In this document: positions 5,532 to 37,859 of the stretch, piece after piece
How the letters are laid out: every line of letters starts with the position of its first letter
How positions within the stretch are numbered: the stretch's first letter is position 1
Origin: Bacteroidia bacterium
GTDB lineage: Bacteria > Bacteroidota > Bacteroidia > J057
Direction of reading: 5' to 3'
Assembly: GCA_033391075.1 (NCBI GenBank)
Contig: JAWPMV010000001.1
Location: 6,944,001 to 7,008,000 of the forward strand
DNA: 64,000 bases
Program-made: the position numbers and the translations under genes
Notes under the pieces: model-generated
Database searches by the model: none
Told to the model about the DNA's origin: nothing
Seen by the model: the letters and a program-made list of their open reading frames with translations, nothing else

Positions 5532-6221
5532 ATCAATAACCTGCAATCATACCTAAAGATCATTGGCCTGGCTATTTGTCTGACTCTGCTATCCTTGCCC
5601 GCTGTGGCACAGCATGGGCAGAGCAAAATTCAGTATAAAGGAGGATGGGGAAGAGCGATGTTTGGAGGAAACTTTCTGAATTTTGATCAGCTAAATCAGA
5701 ATTTGATTGCCAATGAATACGCATCTTTGCCTTCCAGCCTGCTTTCTGTAGGATTGGGACTTTACAAAGAAAGAGGCCGTTTCATTTATGGCGGTGAATT
5801 GTACAACTATATGATTAGCGAAAGCGACCTGGCCAATCAGGATGCTTCTATCGCCTATCATTACGCCATTTTCCGTACCGGTTGGGTTGTCTACCGTCAG
5901 GAAAATTCCTTACTCGTTTATCCTAATATTGGAGTAGGTGGCGGATTGGGTATACTAAAGACTCGTCCCAATACGGAGCCTTTACCCGAAAGATTTAATT
6001 CGGCAGGACTGATGTTTGATGCTGCGATAAGTTTGAGCAAATTCAAACCCCTGGACCTTGATGGAAAATATCAATTGGAGCTGGGCGTGAGTCTGGGATA
6101 CATGCGTACCCTCGACAATATGTGGAACATCACGGGCCTTACCCAAACAGATAACTCCATTTCTGTAAATCCGGATGGCTTTTACTTCAAACTTAGCCTC
6201 GGAATGGGAAGTCTTCGATAA
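5532..6221 (+). CDS. Outer-membrane beta-barrel protein with non-canonical start
   Basis: The protein is a small predicted beta-barrel with alternating hydrophobic/aromatic strands ending in phenylalanine-rich FYFKLSLGMG, and many glycine-rich turns such as GVGGGLG. A good signal peptide is encoded in this frame (KIIGLAICLTLLSLPAVAQ), but no ATG, GTG or TTG precedes it: the frame runs back to a stop at 5523 without one. The first usual start codons (TTG 5595, GTG 5604) would remove the signal peptide. I therefore place the start tentatively at ATC 5532; CTG 5541 is an alternative. The gene begins right after the stop of the DUF4397-like lipoprotein, so translational coupling is possible. A single-base sequencing error is the other explanation. 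Confidence 0.6.
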   Translation: MNNLQSYLKIIGLAICLTLLSLPAVAQHGQSKIQYKGGWGRAMFGGNFLNFDQLNQNLIANEYASLPSSLLSVGLGLYKERGRFIYGGELYNYMISESDLANQDASIAYHYAIFRTGWVVYRQENSLLVYPNIGVGGGLGILKTRPNTEPLPERFNSAGLMFDAAISLSKFKPLDLDGKYQLELGVSLGYMRTLDNMWNITGLTQTDNSISVNPDGFYFKLSLGMGSLR

Positions 6222-6362
6222 GTGTGTAGCAATTCTTTATATTTTTTACATTTTTTTCTCCAAAGTCTGAGTAATATTGAGGACTGAGGCGTTAATAAGG
6301 CAGGATTCGCAAAAAAAGAACAACATTTCTGTCTGTTGATCCCTCTTTAAAGCTCTGTATTC

Positions 6363-26153: not shown

Positions 26154-27032
26154 ATGAAAGGAATTATCCTCGCAGGTGGGTCTGGTACTCGCCTCTACCC
26201 GCTGACCATAGCTGTAAGTAAACAGATCATGCCTATCTATGATAAGCCCATGATCTATTATCCTTTATCAACTCTGCTGGCTGCCGGAATACGAGAAATT
26301 CTGATTATTTCTACGCCCAGAGATCTCCCGTTCTTTAAGCAATTATTGGGAGACGGTTCCCGGATAGGTGCCTCTTTTTCTTATGCGGTTCAGGAGAATC
26401 CTGAAGGCCTGGCTCAGGCATTTATCATCGGAGAGGAATTTGTAGGAGGAGAAGCTGCCGCCCTGATTTTGGGAGACAATATCTTCTATGGAGAACAATT
26501 GGCCAATACCCTATTCGAAGCCAGTCAAAAGGTAGAAGAAGAAGGGGGCGGTCGTGTTTTTGCCTATCATGTCTCCAATCCGAGAGCCTATGGAGTGATC
26601 GAGTTTGACAAGGAAGGCAAGGCAATCAGCATAGAGGAAAAGCCGGAGCATCCGAAATCTTCCTATGCAGTTCCCGGGGTTTATTTTTATGGATCGGATG
26701 TCATAGAAATTGCCAAAAATCTGAAGCCTTCTCCAAGAGGAGAGTTGGAAATCACAGATGTGAATCGGACCTATCTGGAAAGAGGAGATTTAAAAGTTTC
26801 TATTTTGGGTAGGGGAACAGCCTGGCTAGACACAGGCACGCATGATTCTTTGATACAGGCGGGAAACTTTGTTCGCATTATAGAGAAGCGGCAGGGATTA
26901 AAGATCGGTTGTATCGAGGAAGTGGCTTATCGTATGGGATATATAGATGCCGATCAGTTACGGGAAATTGCCGCACCCCTTGTTAAAAGTGGCTACGGCA
27001 AATACCTCATGGAATTACTCGATGAGGCCTGA
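26154..27032 (+). CDS. rfbA: Glucose-1-phosphate thymidylyltransferase
   Basis: 292 residues of the RmlA family, which joins glucose-1-phosphate and dTTP to dTDP-glucose, the first step of dTDP-rhamnose and other dTDP-sugars. The N-terminus is [18 protein letters not shown] with the nucleotide loop; [30 protein letters not shown] and [18 protein letters not shown] are all classical. The C-terminal [20 protein letters not shown] confirms the long RmlA form. It ends the operon; its stop codon touches the stop of the convergent M56-M23 gene with no gap. Confidence 0.95.
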
Positions 27033-28436
27033 TCACTTCAGGTACGTATTAGGATTCACTCTTTTGCTATCTTTTAGAATCTCAAAATGCAAATGGGGTC
27101 CGGTAGAAGCTCCTGAATTACCACTAAGGCCAATTACTTCTCCTTGTTTTACGGTTTGACCTTCTTTCACTTTCATATCTGAAAGCTGAGCATACATGCT
27201 TTCGAAGCCGTCGGCATGCTTAAGTCGGATATGTTTTCCATACCCTCCTTTTTGCATTTTTGCAAAAACGACTGTCCCACTTGCACTTGCTTTTACTGGA
27301 GTGCCTGTTTCTGCTCTAAGGTCAATCCCAAAATGCCATTTCTTCACTTTTTGAATGGGATGGATTCTTTGTCCCCAATCAGAAACGATCTCAACTTTAT
27401 CCAGGGGATAGATAAAACCATCTTCTTCTTCAAGCTGAAGACTGAGATCACTTAACAGTAGATAGTACTGATCAAGACTAGCTTGAAGCTGCTCTTCTAA
27501 GTCGATCTTTTCCTCAAGCATTTGTGGTTCCAGTGCCAACTCGCAAGCACTTCCAAACATGAGTAGAATTCCCATCAGCGAAGGTAGAATCAAATACCTC
27601 AAAGACTGGGTGGGTGTTTTTAATAACATATTGATACGATGTTTAATAGGTGAATAGGCAAATGAATGCAGGGGGAATGCATGTTTTGTTGAATCCTTGT
27701 GTACCAATTTTAAAAGCAATCGAGAGTAAGCAAATTTGTTTTCCTGATGGGCAACAGCCGCATCGGCCAAATATTCGTGTAGGTCCTTCATCTCTCTTTT
27801 GAGCAAGGACATAAGGGGGAGAAACCAAAAAATAATATGAAGTGCGTCCAGAAATAGCAGGTCCAGGCTGTGTCCTTGCCTCGCATGAACTTCTTCATGT
27901 TTGATGATTCGTTCTTGATCTTCCTGATTCAATTCCTGAAGTTCTTGCCCGATGAATATGTAATTGAAAGCGGAGAAGCTTTGAGTCTCAGAGCTATTTA
28001 CCCAAAAAAGTCCCGATTGGTATGAAACTTTACTTCTGTTGATCAACTGAAAAAGCTTCTTCCAGGAAGTCAAAATCGGAACAGCGATGATACCCAATCC
28101 CAAAGCATATATGAATTTTACGAGTAGGCCAAGATTCCAAAGAGAAACTTGTGTCGCCTCACTGGAAATAATGGTCTTTTCCCCTTCATCTTTCCAGACC
28201 ATCCATTCATCTTCCAGACTTTCGACAAAGCTATATCCTTCTGCCAGACTTGTTCCCGGCTGTAGATTCAAGCTGAAGTTCAGGAGAGGATAAATGAGTG
28301 CAAGGCAAAGGAAAGTCAAGAGGAAAATCCGATTTGCCTTGAACTTTGTGTGCTGCTTCAGGAAAAATCTATAAAGGATATAGACGAGGGAAATCCCTAT
28401 GGAAGCCTTTAAGAGATATATGAAAAAGTAGCTCAT
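27033..28436 (-). CDS. BlaR1-like M56 sensor peptidase fused to M23 (LytM) peptidase
   Basis: 467 residues. The N-terminal half (1-297) is a BlaR1/MecR1-type membrane module with four hydrophobic segments (about 2-22, 36-58, 98-122, 278-297) and the cytoplasmic zinc motif HEEVH at 180-184. A short helical linker (about 303-340) leads to a complete M23 peptidase (341-467) with both zinc motifs: HFGID (H368, D372) and HLHFE (H448, H450). In BlaR1 the external end is a penicillin-binding sensor; here a peptidoglycan endopeptidase fold takes its place. The likely model, by inference, is cell-wall sensing that triggers cleavage of the BlaI-like repressor encoded just upstream (4-base overlap). All metal ligands are intact, so the M23 part may be active, not only a binding domain. 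Confidence 0.85.
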   Translation of the reverse strand: MSYFFIYLLKASIGISLVYILYRFFLKQHTKFKANRIFLLTFLCLALIYPLLNFSLNLQPGTSLAEGYSFVESLEDEWMVWKDEGEKTIISSEATQVSLWNLGLLVKFIYALGLGIIAVPILTSWKKLFQLINRSKVSYQSGLFWVNSSETQSFSAFNYIFIGQELQELNQEDQERIIKHEEVHARQGHSLDLLFLDALHIIFWFLPLMSLLKREMKDLHEYLADAAVAHQENKFAYSRLLLKLVHKDSTKHAFPLHSFAYSPIKHRINMLLKTPTQSLRYLILPSLMGILLMFGSACELALEPQMLEEKIDLEEQLQASLDQYYLLLSDLSLQLEEEDGFIYPLDKVEIVSDWGQRIHPIQKVKKWHFGIDLRAETGTPVKASASGTVVFAKMQKGGYGKHIRLKHADGFESMYAQLSDMKVKEGQTVKQGEVIGLSGNSGASTGPHLHFEILKDSKRVNPNTYLK

Positions 28437-28810
28437 GATTTATCCTCCTTTTTTTCGCCTTCATCAATCAGATTCAGGAGCTCTTCCAATTCATTTTTCC
28501 CCAATTCCTCTTCCTTGACCATATAGGATACGACAGACTCTATAGATCCTTCGAAATAATTGCTCATCAACTTTCGAAAACTAAATCTTCGATATTCTTC
28601 TTTGCTGATTAGCGGATGGTACTGATAAGAACGACCATAAGCCTTATGCCCGATAAATTCTTTTTCTTCCAGTATTCTGACAATGGTAGAAACAGAAGTG
28701 TAGGGTGGGGCAGGGGGAGGCATTTCTGCAATGATCTCTTTGACGAAGGCTGCTTCCAGCTTCCAAAGGATCTGCATGATCTTCTCTTCAGCTTTGGTTA
28801 ATTGTTCCAT
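28433..28810 (-). CDS. blaI: BlaI/MecI/CopY-family transcriptional repressor
   Basis: 125 residues with a winged-helix N-terminus: LTKAEEKIMQILWKLE, then VKEIIAEMPPPAPPYTSVSTIVRILEEKEFIGHKAYGR, the hallmark of this family (helix-turn-helix about 40-60). Family members repress their own promoter as dimers and are cut by the BlaR1-type peptidase when the signal is present. The stop overlaps the start of the M56-M23 gene (ATGA), so the pair is translated together. The name blaI denotes the family only; no beta-lactamase lies nearby. Two tandem inverted repeats overlap its promoter. Confidence 0.9.
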   Translation of the reverse strand: MEQLTKAEEKIMQILWKLEAAFVKEIIAEMPPPAPPYTSVSTIVRILEEKEFIGHKAYGRSYQYHPLISKEEYRRFSFRKLMSNYFEGSIESVVSYMVKEEELGKNELEELLNLIDEGEKKEDKS

Positions 28811-28814
28811 GTCC

Positions 28815-28860
28815 CAAAGCTATAACTTAATTTTACGTTAAACAACTTATTTTTAAGTTG
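28815..28860 (-). promoter_or_regulatory. blaI promoter with two tandem operator dyads
   Basis: On the minus strand: TTG (28843-28845), 20 bases, then TAGCTTTG (28815-28822), then GGAC and the ATG: an exact match to the Bacteroidota promoter consensus with a probable leaderless start. Two 18-base dyads with 4-base spacers overlap it: CAACTTA-TTTT-TAAGTTG (28843-28860, perfect) and TAACTTA-ATTT-TACGTTA (28823-28840, one mismatch). Their centres are 20 bases apart, about two helical turns, as expected for cooperative repressor binding. Confidence 0.65.
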
Positions 28861-28885: not shown

Positions 28886-28911
28886 TAGGGGCAGCTCATG
28901 AGCTGCCCCTA
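28886..28911 (-). terminator. 26-base perfect palindrome, terminator-like
   Basis: TAGGGGCAGCTCA plus its exact complement form a 26-base perfect palindrome between the amidohydrolase stop and the blaI promoter. On the minus strand CTTATTTTC follows, a weak T-rich tail. It probably ends the amidohydrolase message. Confidence 0.5.
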
Positions 28912-28945: not shown

Positions 28946-30253
28946 CTATTTCATCCGCATATAATCCAATGCCATACGTGATAAGCTTCTGACTCCCAGT
29001 ACAAAACCTCCTTCGTCTATGTAAAAGTCAGGGGTATGGTGAGAAGCTACATCCTGGGCGCGCTTTCCTGCTTCCATTCCTCCCAGAAAAAAATAAACTC
29101 CGGGAATTTCTTTTTGAAAAAATGAGAAATCTTCAGCTCCAGTAGTCGCATTCATTTCGATTACCCGATTCTTTCCTGCCACATTTTGTAGAGTGGGAAG
29201 CATCATTTTGGTAAGGGCTGGGTCATTGTAGGTAACAGGTGCACCTAAAGGAATATTCACTTCTGCAGTAGTGCCCATACTCTCCGCGATATTGGTAGCG
29301 GTGAGGTGAATCTGTTTATGGATTTCCTTTTGCATAGTGGAGTCCAGGGCACGTATAGTTCCTACCATCCGTACTTCTTCAGGGATGATGTTATTTCGAA
29401 CTCCCCCATGAATCGCCCCGACAGTTACAACTGCTGCATTTTGAGTCAGAGGCATGCGACGACTCACGATGGTTTGCAGTCCGGTAATAATATGGGCGGA
29501 AGCAATGATGGGGTCTGCGCCGGCCCAGGGAGATGAACCATGGGTTTGCTTTCCCCGAACAATAATTTCAAAAAAGTCTGCACTGGCCATGATCCCACCT
29601 GAGCGATAGGTAATCACATTGACGGGAACTTTGCTGCTGATGTGCAGGCCAAAAATCACATCCACATCCGGATTTTTAAGCGCCCCTTCCTTGACCATCA
29701 GTTTTGCACCTCCTTCTTCACCTTGAGGAGCGCCTTCTTCCGCAGGTTGAAAAATGAATTTTATTGTTCCGGGGATTTGTTCTTTCACTTCGCTTAGGAT
29801 GCTGGCCACTCCCATCAGGATGGCAACATGGCTATCATGTCCACAGGCATGCATGACCCCTACATCCTGGCCGTCAAAGACAGAAGTCACCTTTGAGGCA
29901 AAGGGAACAGGCGTCCGCTCCACAACTGGCAGGGCATCCATATCTGCACGCAGGCCTACCACAGGTCCGGGTTTTCCTCCTTTTAGAATACCAATCACTC
30001 CTGTATGTGCGACAGCTGTTTGAACTTCGATCCCTAAGGATCTAAGGTGTTTGGCCACATATTCAGCTGTTTTAAATTCCCGATTGGAGAGTTCCGGATT
30101 CTGGTGGATATGTCGTCTCCATTTTACCACGGACTCCTCTATTTCCTGAGCGAGTTTATCGATACGCTCATCGAGTTCGTCATATTGAGCGTGTAGCTGT
30201 ATTGCTGAAACACAGAGAATCAGGCAAAAGAGCTTTCTGAGTAATGAGTTCAT
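28946..30253 (-). CDS. Secreted M20-family amidohydrolase
   Basis: 435 residues with a signal peptide (MNSLLRKLFCLILCVSAIQLHAQ). The family includes N-acyl-amino-acid and hippurate hydrolases (M20D), which remove acyl groups from amino acids. Seen: RRHIHQNPELSNREF, LRADMDALPV (about 102-110), the metal cysteine and histidine in HACGHDSHVAILMG (C137, H139), FQPAEEGAPQGEEGGAKLM with the catalytic glutamate, and HGSSPWAGADPI of the dimer domain. Near the C-terminus ATTGAEDFSFF supplies a metal ligand region. Export to the periplasm is unusual for bacterial homologs but common in Bacteroidota. Substrate unknown. Confidence 0.88.
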   Translation of the reverse strand: MNSLLRKLFCLILCVSAIQLHAQYDELDERIDKLAQEIEESVVKWRRHIHQNPELSNREFKTAEYVAKHLRSLGIEVQTAVAHTGVIGILKGGKPGPVVGLRADMDALPVVERTPVPFASKVTSVFDGQDVGVMHACGHDSHVAILMGVASILSEVKEQIPGTIKFIFQPAEEGAPQGEEGGAKLMVKEGALKNPDVDVIFGLHISSKVPVNVITYRSGGIMASADFFEIIVRGKQTHGSSPWAGADPIIASAHIITGLQTIVSRRMPLTQNAAVVTVGAIHGGVRNNIIPEEVRMVGTIRALDSTMQKEIHKQIHLTATNIAESMGTTAEVNIPLGAPVTYNDPALTKMMLPTLQNVAGKNRVIEMNATTGAEDFSFFQKEIPGVYFFLGGMEAGKRAQDVASHHTPDFYIDEGGFVLGVRSLSRMALDYMRMK

Positions 30254-33017: not shown

Positions 33018-36000
33018 CTAAGGGGAGTAAACCTCAAGAAATACAGGCCCTTTGATCTTTCTTTTAAAGATCAGGGCCTTTTTCTTTTGTGTTAAGCTGA
33101 GATCTTTTACGTCAATACTATTGATCCCTTTATCCCTGATCTGCTCCCAGGAAGGCTGTAAAAGCTTCAGAATCGAAGCCTGCCAGTAGGGGCCTGGCCT
33201 TTTGCTTCTTAGATTGGCAATTACCCAGGATAGTTTCTCTTCTTTCTTTTCAGCCAGAACCTCCTGCTCATGCAATTGAGTTAAGGCTCGCCAGGAGGCT
33301 TGCCAAGCTGGATCAATTTTATAATTCGCCAACCCTTTCCTCAACTCCACATATTTAGCTTTTTCCGCAGTCCAAATGATGGCCTCTGGAACGGGATGCA
33401 GGTAGAGACTATCGAGATAATGTAAGGCGTGGGCCATCGTCTGCTGCTGAAAAATACTACTGCTAATCCCCAGGCTTTTCAGGTCTGTTTCCATTGCAAG
33501 GAGGGATAGAGTAAAGGCAGGATCAATATCCTTAATACCTTCTTCTATAAAAGCACCATTGGATGTTTGTTTTGCACGGAGTCGATATGCCAAACGTTTT
33601 TCCAGTTCATTCAGATAGGAAATCTCCAATTCGCCTTCATAAACCTTTTGGATCCAGGATTGGAACTGAGGATCAAGCTTATCCATTTCTTTCAGAACAG
33701 AGATCGCAAAAAGGGCCTCTTGTATAGAGTGGGGATCATGGACATTCACATGGGCAATGAGACTCGGCAAAGAGCGAATGGCAAAAAAGGCAGGATCTCG
33801 ACTGGCTCGGAAGCGAAATTTCTTTCCTTGCTCTTTGGACTGCAGGTCAATGCGGTACTTTTTCTGCTTGTTGGGAATGCTATAATGCTTGCGCCCCCAA
33901 GCATAATTTTGAGCCTGAACAAAGAGAGGAGACTCAAAAGATATCTCGTCTTCCTCGCTTCCTCCTGAAAGCCTGAGTTCATAAACCCCTTCTTTTTCGG
34001 GTGCTGTAATTCTGTTTTCCAGCTTGCTTGCTTTGTCCTTTTCAATTTCTACAGAATAGCTTTCTGATTTGTTGTTCAGATGAAGGTCCACCCCTAATTT
34101 ATTGAGCGTACTGGAAAGTGATAATAAGGTAAAAGACAAGTCTTTAGTTTTGCCTGCCTCAGCCACAGGATCATGCTCCTGGAGTACGATTATAGCTAAG
34201 GAATTGGAGTCCTGAAATTCACGATAGGCGAAGGAATTATGTTCATCCATAATCAGGCTCATGAACATCTGAGGATTAATTCCTTTTGTTCTGTTAAAGG
34301 GCAGGATTCTTCGCTCTCCTTCCTCAAGGAATTCAAAAGCAAAGGAACTTTCTTGCTTCCAGGCATTTTGACTCTCCCATTTATCCAAAGCCCAATCTAC
34401 CTGCCTTTGAAAATTGAGATTGACATTGGCAAAGAGATTGATCCATCGGTGGGGAGGAGGGATAGATCTGCGATCGCGGGGGAAACTCAGAACACCATTA
34501 GCAGTTTGCTGGAAGAATTCTGAGGCTTCTCTATGATCTGTATTCGGTAGCCAGGAAATAGAGGGATACGCATACAAAGGAAAACTTAAGCTTTCTTCCC
34601 AAATTTTACCTCCTGCCAAAGCCGCTCTTGCAGGTTCGAGGTACCGCCTGCTCTGCTCCTGATTTTTTCTTTTTACTGCGCTTGGAAGCCCAAATGAGAA
34701 GTCGGCTAATCCCGGGCTGTTTGCAGGGACTTTCGCATAAAAAGCATGCAGGGAAGTCCGGGCTTTCTCCTGAAGTTGGAGGGCTACTGAATGCTTCTCA
34801 GAAGCTTCTAAATGATAGTCAGGTTCTGTACCAAGAACGCTTATAAGTTGAGAGACCCAGGTCGCTTCATTCCTGTATATAAAAGAAAAGGAAAGACTGA
34901 GATTTCCGATATGATGTTCATCCAAAACAAAGTTTACTTGCTGTCCTTGTTCTCCCGCTTTTAGCAATCCTCTTGTCAAATTCTTTCTGCCTCTATTGAT
35001 TTGGTATTGTATATCGATTCCTTCCACTTTGCTTTTCAAGGATGCAATCAGGCTATCTCCGGGTCGATATACTTCCTGATTTAAGGAATAGGAAAAAAAT
35101 TCAGGAATATCGCTATGACTCTTTTTTTTCGCTTTCAGTCGGAAATAATGACGTTTTTGTAGGAGCCTTTTTTCTTTGAAAGGAAGAATCATACGAACCC
35201 GATACATTCCAGGCTTCCACTTCTCCGTCTGAAAGGAAATTTTTTCGATACCCTCTTCTGAATTAAGGCTATCCATATAGACGGTATCGACAATGCCCCA
35301 GCTTCTGAAGTCATCTTCAAAGCCATAGACATCATCGGGAAAATCTTTCCGATAATCCTCTTCTGAAACCAAATGAAGGTCGGGAATCATCCAACGCCTT
35401 TTTCTGTAAATCTCTTTCGGATTTTCCAGGGATTCTATGATGACTTTCCCCTTGAAAGGAAGGTCTTCTCCCAATAAGTTCCGAACCTGAAATTCCAACT
35501 TCATTTCTTTTCCTTTCTCCACTTCATCTCCTCCATGGATAGCAAGAGATTTCCCACTTTCACTTATCAGAAGATTATAGCTTTCGATCATCTTTTCTCC
35601 TTCCGGATCAGTTGCCACCAGTCGAACTTTGTAAAAGTAGACGGGACGCTGAGCTATGGGGTGACTGGGATCGGGGCGGGTATGGAAAGCAAGTTGAAAT
35701 TTCCCCAGGGAATCAATGCTTGCATTTCCCTGTTTCACCAGAACTTCCTGATGATGCGGAATGGGTTTCCACCAACTATAATCTCCCCAATCCGGAAATC
35801 GAACATCCCGGGTAACGAGATATCGAAGGTCTGCATCCTCCCAAAGAGTTTCAGGAGGCCCCAGCATTTGTCCATATAGGCTAACGGTATCTTTGGGGGC
35901 ATATGTTTTTTTATCCTGCTGTATCTGCAATCCATAAGGGGATTGATTTCTTTCGACTATATCTATGCCGGCATAAGCAGCTCCGCAAAAAATATAAAGC

Positions 36001-37859
36001 TTTCCCAGCTGCACATGTAGGGGTAGGGGATAAAGCGCTTCGAATACTCCTTCTGCATTGCTACGAACGGATAAGGTGTCTAGGGAATTTCCATCTTTCG
36101 ATATGACAAGCTGGAGGCTGCTATCTGCAATAGGAGAAGTATCCTGCTCAAGTGCTCTTCGGATCAGTCCTTTGATGGCGATAAACTCTCCCCGAAAATA
36201 GGAGGGACGATCTGTGAAAACATGTGTCTTGGTATTTGCTTTATATAATTTGGGTTCTAATGCTGGGATTCTCAATCTTTCAGTCAGGCTGTCATTCTGC
36301 TGGCAAAGGTTTAGTTTCAGGTTTTTGCTGAATAAAGGCTTACGTGCAAAACCTAGTCTTCCTTTGGCATCCGTTTCCAGCTGAATGGTTTTTCCCTTGT
36401 CCTTAAATTCGACTTTTACCCCTTCCAGACCTTTTCCGTTTTCCCGGTCTTTTACATAGAAAAATACACTGTCCGCTCTTTGTAGATGGGAGCTGTACAA
36501 TTGACTGATCTTTATGGGTAAAACTGAGATAAGGCCCTTTTCCTGGTCGAAGTCTTTTCGATTTGAAGCACATAGGGCATAAGTTCCAGTAGGTAATGAA
36601 GGAAGTGCAGCTTCGGTTCGGTGAAAGTGAAAATCTCCATCAAAGGCCAAATAGATATCTCCTTTTTTGCTTATCGAAAACTGACGGGCAAAATCCCATC
36701 TTAGTGCAGAAGTTTTGAGTTCCGTAAAAGTATCTTCTTTTTCGCTGCTAATCCGATAGAGACGAAAGTAGAGGTGGTTTAAATTGCGATAATTCACCTG
36801 CATACGAAATGCTTTCTTGGGCAGGTTGACCTCCTCTGCTGCGATCCGGAGGGCCGGTTTTTCTATCAGAGCAATCAGGGCTTTACATTTGGCAGCTCCC
36901 CGACTTTTGGGAAATTCCTGGATGGTAGCCGTAGAAATTTCCCAGGCTTGTTGGTAGTCCCATTTATAGGCATTTCCTCCCAAAGGCTGGAAGTCTCCAG
37001 CTATGCTGGTATATACCATGGCCATTTCATATTGAACATCCGCCAGGGCAGAATTGCCGGGATAGGTCTCCATCATGTGTCTGAGGTTACGCACATATCT
37101 TCCCGCTTTATCCAATCCACTCGAATATTTCCTTAGCCACTTGATCATCCGTAAGTGTGAATCAATGAGGGCATTATGCGCCTTCTCTTCCAATTGATAG
37201 CTGAAAAGCTCTTTGTAAAGATTCAGGCTGATATGGGTATGGTTGAGTGAATCGAGAAGGGGAAAGAGTGCAGAAAGATAGTTCTTCGGGGGCATGATAA
37301 GTCCCTGTGCCAGCATCCGAAACTCGGCGGGTGCCGGATTTAGTATACAACGAGGGTCCTCAAAATAATCCAGCGCCCTGTGAACAAGGAAGTCATATAA
37401 AGTCGGCCTGAATGAGGGATCTGTATTTCCCGTTCGGGGGAGCTTAACTTTTGATAAATCAATTTTCTTTAGTTCTTCCGAATACTCCAAAGATTGCAGA
37501 TACAAGGCAGTGGAACTTTCGATGAGTTTAGGAGCAGACCAGCTTTTGAGATCTCCTTCTTCTTCTGTAAGGATGGGTTGAGATTTGAGTGCTTCCAGGT
37601 TTTCAATGAAATAGGCGTAATAGAATTCGGCCAAAAGGCTTTGAAGCAGGCTTTTTTGTGGACCGTCTGCTTGCCGAATCATTTCCTGCATCAGACTTGC
37701 TTTACGATTGAGGTCTTGTTGAGAGGCAAGCAGGGCATAGCTCTCCGCTAAACTTTGATTGAGGGCCGGATAGCTTTGGCTCATAGACTTTTTGCCCGAA
37801 AAAAGGAGGACAAAACATATGAGGCAATAAAGGAGAAATGAATTTGGGCTTTTTCTCAT
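33018..37859 (-). CDS. Alpha-2-macroglobulin-like large secreted protein
   Basis: 1613 residues, the largest gene here. Signal peptide (1-27, ending SMSQ), a helical TPR-like part (about 30-340, including SSGLDKAGRYVRNLRHMMETYPGNSAL), then a chain of beta-sandwich MG-like domains. The MG2-like signature VFTDRPSYFRGE is at about 547-558 and the domain repeats (YRPGDSLIASLKSKVEG, KTYAPKDTVSLYGQMLG). The C-terminal third looks like the alpha-helical toroid region. I see no thioester CxEQ motif, so it is unlikely to trap proteases covalently. Bacteroidota carry such proteins next to many genes; a role in envelope defence is inferred. Convergent with the YfhO gene. Confidence 0.75.
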   Translation of the reverse strand: MRKSPNSFLLYCLICFVLLFSGKKSMSQSYPALNQSLAESYALLASQQDLNRKASLMQEMIRQADGPQKSLLQSLLAEFYYAYFIENLEALKSQPILTEEEGDLKSWSAPKLIESSTALYLQSLEYSEELKKIDLSKVKLPRTGNTDPSFRPTLYDFLVHRALDYFEDPRCILNPAPAEFRMLAQGLIMPPKNYLSALFPLLDSLNHTHISLNLYKELFSYQLEEKAHNALIDSHLRMIKWLRKYSSGLDKAGRYVRNLRHMMETYPGNSALADVQYEMAMVYTSIAGDFQPLGGNAYKWDYQQAWEISTATIQEFPKSRGAAKCKALIALIEKPALRIAAEEVNLPKKAFRMQVNYRNLNHLYFRLYRISSEKEDTFTELKTSALRWDFARQFSISKKGDIYLAFDGDFHFHRTEAALPSLPTGTYALCASNRKDFDQEKGLISVLPIKISQLYSSHLQRADSVFFYVKDRENGKGLEGVKVEFKDKGKTIQLETDAKGRLGFARKPLFSKNLKLNLCQQNDSLTERLRIPALEPKLYKANTKTHVFTDRPSYFRGEFIAIKGLIRRALEQDTSPIADSSLQLVISKDGNSLDTLSVRSNAEGVFEALYPLPLHVQLGKLYIFCGAAYAGIDIVERNQSPYGLQIQQDKKTYAPKDTVSLYGQMLGPPETLWEDADLRYLVTRDVRFPDWGDYSWWKPIPHHQEVLVKQGNASIDSLGKFQLAFHTRPDPSHPIAQRPVYFYKVRLVATDPEGEKMIESYNLLISESGKSLAIHGGDEVEKGKEMKLEFQVRNLLGEDLPFKGKVIIESLENPKEIYRKRRWMIPDLHLVSEEDYRKDFPDDVYGFEDDFRSWGIVDTVYMDSLNSEEGIEKISFQTEKWKPGMYRVRMILPFKEKRLLQKRHYFRLKAKKKSHSDIPEFFSYSLNQEVYRPGDSLIASLKSKVEGIDIQYQINRGRKNLTRGLLKAGEQGQQVNFVLDEHHIGNLSLSFSFIYRNEATWVSQLISVLGTEPDYHLEASEKHSVALQLQEKARTSLHAFYAKVPANSPGLADFSFGLPSAVKRKNQEQSRRYLEPARAALAGGKIWEESLSFPLYAYPSISWLPNTDHREASEFFQQTANGVLSFPRDRRSIPPPHRWINLFANVNLNFQRQVDWALDKWESQNAWKQESSFAFEFLEEGERRILPFNRTKGINPQMFMSLIMDEHNSFAYREFQDSNSLAIIVLQEHDPVAEAGKTKDLSFTLLSLSSTLNKLGVDLHLNNKSESYSVEIEKDKASKLENRITAPEKEGVYELRLSGGSEEDEISFESPLFVQAQNYAWGRKHYSIPNKQKKYRIDLQSKEQGKKFRFRASRDPAFFAIRSLPSLIAHVNVHDPHSIQEALFAISVLKEMDKLDPQFQSWIQKVYEGELEISYLNELEKRLAYRLRAKQTSNGAFIEEGIKDIDPAFTLSLLAMETDLKSLGISSSIFQQQTMAHALHYLDSLYLHPVPEAIIWTAEKAKYVELRKGLANYKIDPAWQASWRALTQLHEQEVLAEKKEEKLSWVIANLRSKRPGPYWQASILKLLQPSWEQIRDKGINSIDVKDLSLTQKKKALIFKRKIKGPVFLEVYSP

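Follow-up and report, generated by a model that had tools for sequence, protein, structure and literature searches.

An M56 protease of the BlaR1 type fused to a LytM/M23 domain and encoded behind blaI in Bacteroidota: a putative receptor for the state of the cell wall

Results

A repressor gene overlaps the gene for an M56-M23 fusion protein

The window analysed in this work is a stretch of 64,000 nucleotides from a genome of the Bacteroidia. On its minus strand, a gene for a BlaI/MecI-type repressor is located directly upstream of a gene that joins a BlaR1-type membrane protease and a LytM/M23 peptidase domain in a single reading frame, and the two genes share 4 nt:

28433..28810, minus strand: blaI/mecI-type repressor gene, 125 aa (Penicillinase_R, E 1e-30)
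27033..28436, minus strand: M56-M23 fusion gene, 467 aa, one open reading frame

MecI is the nearest solved relative of the repressor (E 1.3e-11). Downstream of the fusion gene, an open reading frame on the plus strand is convergent with it (26154-27032), and upstream of blaI a gene for an M20 peptidase is found on the same strand (28946-30253). No beta-lactamase gene was seen beside the fusion gene among the open reading frames read in the window. The M20 gene and blaI are separated by a region containing a perfect palindrome, TAGGGGCAGCTCATGAGCTGCCCCTA (28886-28911), the core of which is present at eight exact and two one-mismatch places in the same genome versus none for the reversed control, a dispersed palindromic repeat. 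The region is furthermore neighboured by an open reading frame for 1613 aa with a signal-like start (33018-37859).

The signalling half resembles BlaR1

27624..27965, minus strand: Peptidase_M56 (BlaR1-type gluzincin), residues 158-271 (Pfam E 1.5e-14, 54.3 bits, cut-off 31)
27885..27899, minus strand: HEEVH zinc motif, residues 180-184 (H180, E181 and H184 present in 29 of 29 fusions)
27660..27662, minus strand: codon of Phe259, at the place of BlaR1 Phe284, the P1' residue of the Ser283|Phe284 autocleavage site

The initial annotation of the locus had recognized an M56-type membrane sensor with an HEEVH motif, and this is corroborated by the Pfam match as well as by the fold. In an AlphaFold2 model of the fusion protein (41 rows, mean pLDDT 84.8, pTM 0.60), the part from residue 4 to residue 262 superimposes on the structure of S. 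aureus BlaR1 (8exs_A, Z 15.6, rmsd 5.2, 225 residues aligned). This match stems from a second structure comparison; the best 50 PDB matches listed by Foldseek were all M23-type or LytM-containing. The curated NCBIfam models for BlaR1 stay far below their cut-offs (blaR1_generic 26.3 bits versus 400, sensor_BlaR1 17.3 bits versus 1200).

Residues H180, E181, H184, E221, D225, Y237 and R267, which match residues named for BlaR1 (PMC9834060), are kept in all 29 fusions that we collected, and position 259 is occupied by Phe in 28 of them and by Met in one. The local sequence around Phe259 reads HSF and BlaR1 cleaves itself at His-Ser|Phe, that is between Ser283 and Phe284 (PMC9834060); Phe259 is probably the residue-to-residue match of Phe284. 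With its BlaR1 fold, the HExxH motif and the phenylalanine at the autocleavage position the signalling core looks complete.

Hydropathy peaks are present at residues 3-26, 37-55, 104-122, 193-211 and 282-300. The first loop carries four basic and no acidic residues and the loop from 57 to 103 two basic and nine acidic ones, so that the charges fit the topology of BlaR1, with both termini outside (PMC9834060). For the extracellular loop that links helices 2 and 3 the confidence of the prediction is low (pLDDT 44-65 for residues 51-100), and the model, with the loop at this confidence, does not reveal a plugging of the M23 groove by this loop.

The M23 domain lacks one catalytic histidine

27033..27416, minus strand: LytM/M23 domain, residues 341-467, plus stop codon (Pfam, structure model)
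27186..27188, minus strand: CAG codon of Gln417, where LytM (His260) and Campylobacter Pgp3 (His216) have their catalytic histidine

As initially proposed, an M23 domain is found where BlaR1 carries its penicillin-binding domain. Peptidase_M23 is matched by residues 368-462 (Pfam E 1e-34, 119.1 bits, cut-off 28.7) and there is no penicillin-binding family among the Pfam matches with E values up to 1. Structure prediction for residues 341-467 points in the same direction: from residue 341 onwards the model is confident (pLDDT 94-98 per block), and it matches LytM domains with Z scores of up to 22.6 (7qrl_C 22.6, 6ue4_A 22.1, 4bh5_A 21.8, 2b13_A 21.0). Both motifs that had been noted, H368/D372 and H448/H450, are indeed present, H368, D372 and H450 being the zinc ligands and H448 the first histidine of the HxH motif.

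The description of the domain as an intact M23 peptidase has to be corrected. That check had covered the two motifs, and M23 enzymes possess a further catalytic histidine about 30 residues before HxH, namely His260 in LytM, His329 in lysostaphin and His81 in LasA (PMC9662197). At the position of LytM His260 the window protein has Gln417; its codon is an ordinary sense codon and the reading frame is open. The same column contains His in Pgp3 (PDB 6jmx) and an engineered Ala in the H216A entry 6jn7. Among 125 M23 stretches it holds His in 121 cases, Asn in three, two of which also lack zinc ligands, and Gln only in the window. Of the 29 fusions, 27 have His; the exceptions are the window protein and the first M23 domain of G308, which has Asn. 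The second fusion encoded in the same genome, on contig 5, has His at this position.

Exchange of either His260 or His291 for Ala abolishes the activity of LytM, and LytM Tyr204 mutants do not cut but still bind peptidoglycan (PMC4594094). Pgp3 H247A likewise fails to cut and binds the pentapeptide with a KD of 6.8 uM (PMC9050674). The initial annotation had suggested that the domain serves as an input by substrate binding or cleavage. Because the M23 domain is not fully intact, cleavage is unlikely as an input in the window copy, which has probably lost hydrolysis, and it is the binding part of this suggestion that fits better. In Pgp3 the position of Gln417 is occupied by His216, and the H216A exchange reduces the binding of an inhibitor by a factor of at least five (PMC9050674); by analogy Gln417 may weaken binding as well.

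M56-M23 fusions recur in Bacteroidota and follow blaI

We collected 29 distinct M56-M23 fusions with a mutual identity of at most 69%; the window protein does not exceed 33% identity with any of the others. This recurrence led us to reject an assembly artefact or a chance reading frame as the source of the fusion. The initial annotation had named separate genes for the two halves in relatives as a refutation; this objection fails for the fusion as such, although in numerous M56 relatives a different domain is found at the C-terminus in place of M23. The expectation that other fusions would always follow a blaI gene proved correct: a blaI gene on the same strand precedes the fusion gene in 27 of 27 cases with assessable upstream DNA, the remaining two ending at contig borders. 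In 26 of the 27 it overlaps the fusion gene or lies within 12 nt of it; in G649 the distance is 329 nt because the sensor frame is interrupted.

The named relatives with the same fusion are all Bacteroidota and comprise two Aquimarina, a Croceivirga MAG and a Flavobacteriaceae MAG. Fusions are present in four of the 13 genomes of the organism's own family. At least five were found in a phylum sample of 395 genomes, at least ten in a class sample of 395, at least ten in 299 genomes of family f48 and five in 35 genomes of family f11; the samples overlap, and the counts are lower bounds as four candidates per genome were scored in the 395-genome samples and five in the 299-genome sample. The survey profiles were built from fusions and therefore favour like proteins. 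L186, L187 and L190 were dropped as repeats of L070, L071 and L072, and L051 was likewise dropped as a repeat. A first scan of genome contigs with the single protein yielded no relatives, and of 1002 plasmid records with a match none covered 80% of the fusion protein.

All five fusions of family f11 (L070, L071, L072, L188, L189) have a blaI partner and bear an amidase motif behind the M23 domain, which Pfam confirmed as Amidase_3 in each of the three triple fusions tested. In the Croceivirga fusion (L076 3001-5196) and in L183 (G940) about 300 or more extra residues follow the M23 domain; no Pfam family scores above its cut-off in the Croceivirga extension. G308 (L063 1024-3015) has a more canonical BlaR1-type M56 part and two tandem M23 domains, the second of which has His at the catalytic position; it does not group with the other fusions.

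Origin of the fusion

In the M56 tree, the M23 label needs seven changes, at least three of which are forced by starred branches. When 17 fusions were constrained to one clade, with G308 left out, the AU test returned p 0.022, a value to be read with caution in view of the long branches. The M23 tree, which is based on 125 rows of a short stretch and is poorly resolved, needs five label changes with only one forced. A single origin is unsupported on the M56 tree, the warning on long branches applying here too. On the other hand, one origin with subsequent domain losses could still have occurred, given these long branches and the single forced change in the M23 tree. Alignment A3 comprises 16 proteins including that of the window; G308 and G649 were left out.

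The genome itself encodes ten M56 proteins above the Pfam cut-off with nine adjacent blaI genes. The C-terminal parts contain M23 in two cases, TonB_C in two, CarbopepD_reg plus Plug, DUF2807 and a Por secretion tail in one case each and nothing nameable in three. The periplasmic part of M56 sensors appears to be prone to swapping because the C-terminal domains differ so much within one genome.

Operator-like dyads and the cleavage position of BlaI

28844..28859, minus strand: operator-like dyad 1, AACTTAAAAATAAGTT (motif comparison)
28824..28839, minus strand: operator-like dyad 2, AACGTAAAATTAAGTT, with one mismatch, 20 bp from dyad 1
28815..28822, minus strand: TAGCTTTG, a TAnnTTTG box by motif, 4 nt before the ATG of blaI

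Of 27 promoters, 26 contain an ACT-N8-AGT dyad no more than 90 bp from the start of blaI, as compared with a mean of 0.96 and a maximum of 5 over 500 rounds of a Markov control, and many of the promoters have two or three copies 20 bp apart. Other spacings between ACT and AGT (4-7 and 9-12) occur in none or one of the 27. The TAnnTTTG box, which we take to be of the Bacteroidota type, precedes the start by 4 or 5 nt in 15 of the 27 promoters including that of the window (control mean 0.14, maximum 3); since start codons were picked by motif, wrong starts may explain some of the 12 misses. With the box so close to the start codon, the blaI message would be almost leaderless.

In the organism's own genome, tandem dyads with up to one mismatch give four matches at three loci, all of them blaI-M56 promoters, namely those of the window, the second M23 fusion and the CarbopepD_reg sensor. 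When up to two mismatches are allowed, the tandem pattern occurs at six places versus ten for the reversed control, all mismatch classes taken together; as this count is below the control, the search locates the best sites and is no evidence of an excess. The exact sequence AACTTANNNNTAAGTT is found at three places, i.e. the window promoter, the inside of an open reading frame and a site 43 nt upstream of another one, versus five for the reversed control, and on these counts a wider regulon was not supported. The last of these copies (L156, G000:C1:7254531-7254546) precedes an unrelated reading frame for 206 aa; judged by its sequence, it could be a distant target or a chance occurrence.

S. 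aureus BlaI is cut at Asn101|Phe102, the phenylalanine being almost invariant (PMC9834060). Tyr96-Met97 of the window BlaI aligns with Asn101-Phe102 of MecI, a point against strict likeness to the staphylococcal system; Phe is present at the cleavage position in 12 of 17 partner BlaI proteins.

Discussion

The gene pair studied here shares its main elements with the BlaR1/MecR1-BlaI/MecI systems of staphylococci and Bacillus licheniformis: a four-helix M56 protease with HExxH and a phenylalanine at the autocleavage position, a C-terminal domain that would lie outside, a BlaI-family repressor in the operon and dyad operators at its own promoter. The sensor domain sets it apart. In BlaR1/MecR1 it is a penicillin-binding domain of the class D beta-lactamase type with an SxxK motif, in BlaR1 marked by slow deacylation (PMC7593790), and the outer loop of BlaR1 competes in the sensor active site (PMC9834060); in the window protein it is a LytM/M23 domain. 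A BlaR1-like transmembrane switch with a peptidoglycan-binding M23 domain as its input is the reading we put forward, and we give it an even chance of being correct. BlaI, bound to the tandem dyads of its own promoter, would keep the blaI-M56-M23 operon low. The sensor would cross the membrane in the manner of BlaR1: its HExxH protease would be located on the inner side and its LytM/M23 domain on the outer, periplasmic side, where the latter would bind stem peptides or cross-links of peptidoglycan. A change in the bound material could shift the membrane helices, whereupon the M56 protease would cut BlaI and the operon would be derepressed. With zinc ligands and HxH kept and Gln417 in place of His, the window domain would be more of a binder than a cutter, an enzyme turned receptor comparable to the sensor of BlaR1. 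A wall-related theme has a basis in this repressor family, since BlaI/MecI is released by wall dipeptides in vitro (PMC3305447). What the sequence itself shows is the fusion, its blaI partner, the conserved protease residues and operators, and Gln417; the topology, the ligand, the transfer of the signal, the cutting of BlaI and the loss of hydrolysis are inferred, as is the wall-stress switch that was initially suggested.

The main rival explanation reverses the role of the M23 domain and regards it as an output. BlaI and the M56 protease would then determine, in a closed circuit, how much of a wall hydrolase tethered to the membrane is present, and the signal would enter elsewhere, through the helices, through the extracellular loop or via wall fragments that act on BlaI. 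The M23 catalytic residues are complete in 27 of the 29 fusions, five fusions bear Amidase_3 and another has two M23 domains, which gives them an enzyme-like appearance, and a wall dipeptide can release BlaI (PMC3305447). Furthermore, tandem dyads with up to one mismatch are confined to blaI-M56 promoters in the genome, and by eye no third gene is common to seven fusion loci, except between the two Aquimarina loci. A point against an output function is that the window copy lacks a histidine whose loss kills LytM (PMC4594094). Other M56 proteins of the genome carry TonB_C, CarbopepD_reg/Plug or DUF2807 at this place. These domains are not known to be hydrolases. Single dyads may also be present elsewhere, as in the case of the exact AACTTANNNNTAAGTT copy upstream of the unrelated reading frame at L156. 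All in all, we consider an output role unlikely.

A quite improbable variant is that the M23 domain behaves like the LytM factors EnvC and NlpD, which activate amidases (PMC11870482). Instead of cutting, it would bind a periplasmic amidase and activate it, while M56 and BlaI set the dose. The direct fusion of M23 to Amidase_3 in five relatives and the presence of EnvC LytM domains among the closest folds (4bh5_A, Z 21.8; 8c0j_B, Z 21.1) would agree with such a function. EnvC and NlpD are inactive LytM factors that are not known to have such zinc-ligand residues, whereas the window domain retains all of them, and the fused M23 domains of the amidase-containing relatives retain the whole catalytic set. 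The least probable of the explanations considered is that the window M23 is an enzyme in decay that no longer has a function, the sensor responding through a different part of the protein. A catalytic histidine that 27 of 29 fusions keep has been lost, and the nearest relative is only 33% identical, so that the loss may be recent or old. Points against decay are the open reading frame, the confidently modelled domain (pLDDT 94-98 per block) and the fact that, apart from Gln417, zinc ligands, HxH and all other residues invariant in alignment A3 are preserved.

Under our preferred reading of M23 as a binding input, a receptor that only binds would not be the rule for the family, since 27 of 29 fusions keep the full catalytic set. 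More generally, it is possible, albeit doubtful, that BlaI-M56-M23 and BlaI-M56-M23-Amidase_3 operons constitute a class of receptors for the state of the wall, in which a hydrolase domain, attached on more than one occasion to a BlaR1-type protease prone to swapping, would signal the presence of its own substrate to a repressor, and this repressor would control nothing but the receptor, in a closed circuit. In the window, the hydrolase would have become a pure receptor via the change from His to Gln, in parallel to the beta-lactamase-like sensor of BlaR1. BlaR1 and MecR1 are known as sensors of drugs; a reading of peptidoglycan via LytM, if true, would suggest what the input of such switches was before beta-lactams. 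It would also provide a simple system of two genes that allows the sensing of the wall, the activation of the protease and the cleavage of the repressor to be studied separately, and the genome offers a native input domain (contig 5) and a catalytically altered one (window) side by side.

The name "M23/M56 family metallopeptidase" already exists for products of this kind. The architecture itself has been published: a review names M56 among the other catalytic domains that occur together with M23 in one protein, in less than 1% of hits (PMC9662197). Its single sentence on this frequency mentions no BlaI partner, operators or amidase extension, and the same source states that M56 has yet to be demonstrated to act in wall cleavage. 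In the openly licensed literature we found no functional description of the fusion, its linkage to BlaI, the operators, the triple fusion or the M56-TonB relatives. The window M23 domain shares its fold, zinc ligands and HxH with the endopeptidases LytM, lysostaphin, ShyA, Csd1/Csd2 and Pgp3 and differs from them by Gln417 and by the fused signalling protease.

Bacteroidota BlaI-M56 operons with TonB_C, CarbopepD_reg, Plug or DUF2807 have the blaI partner and the M56 core in common with the window operon but differ in the periplasmic domain. At locus L034 (3051-5828) two tandem M56-TonB_C sensors are located behind one blaI gene, and they are followed by a small open reading frame (5835-6227) that by eye resembles their TonB_C ends.
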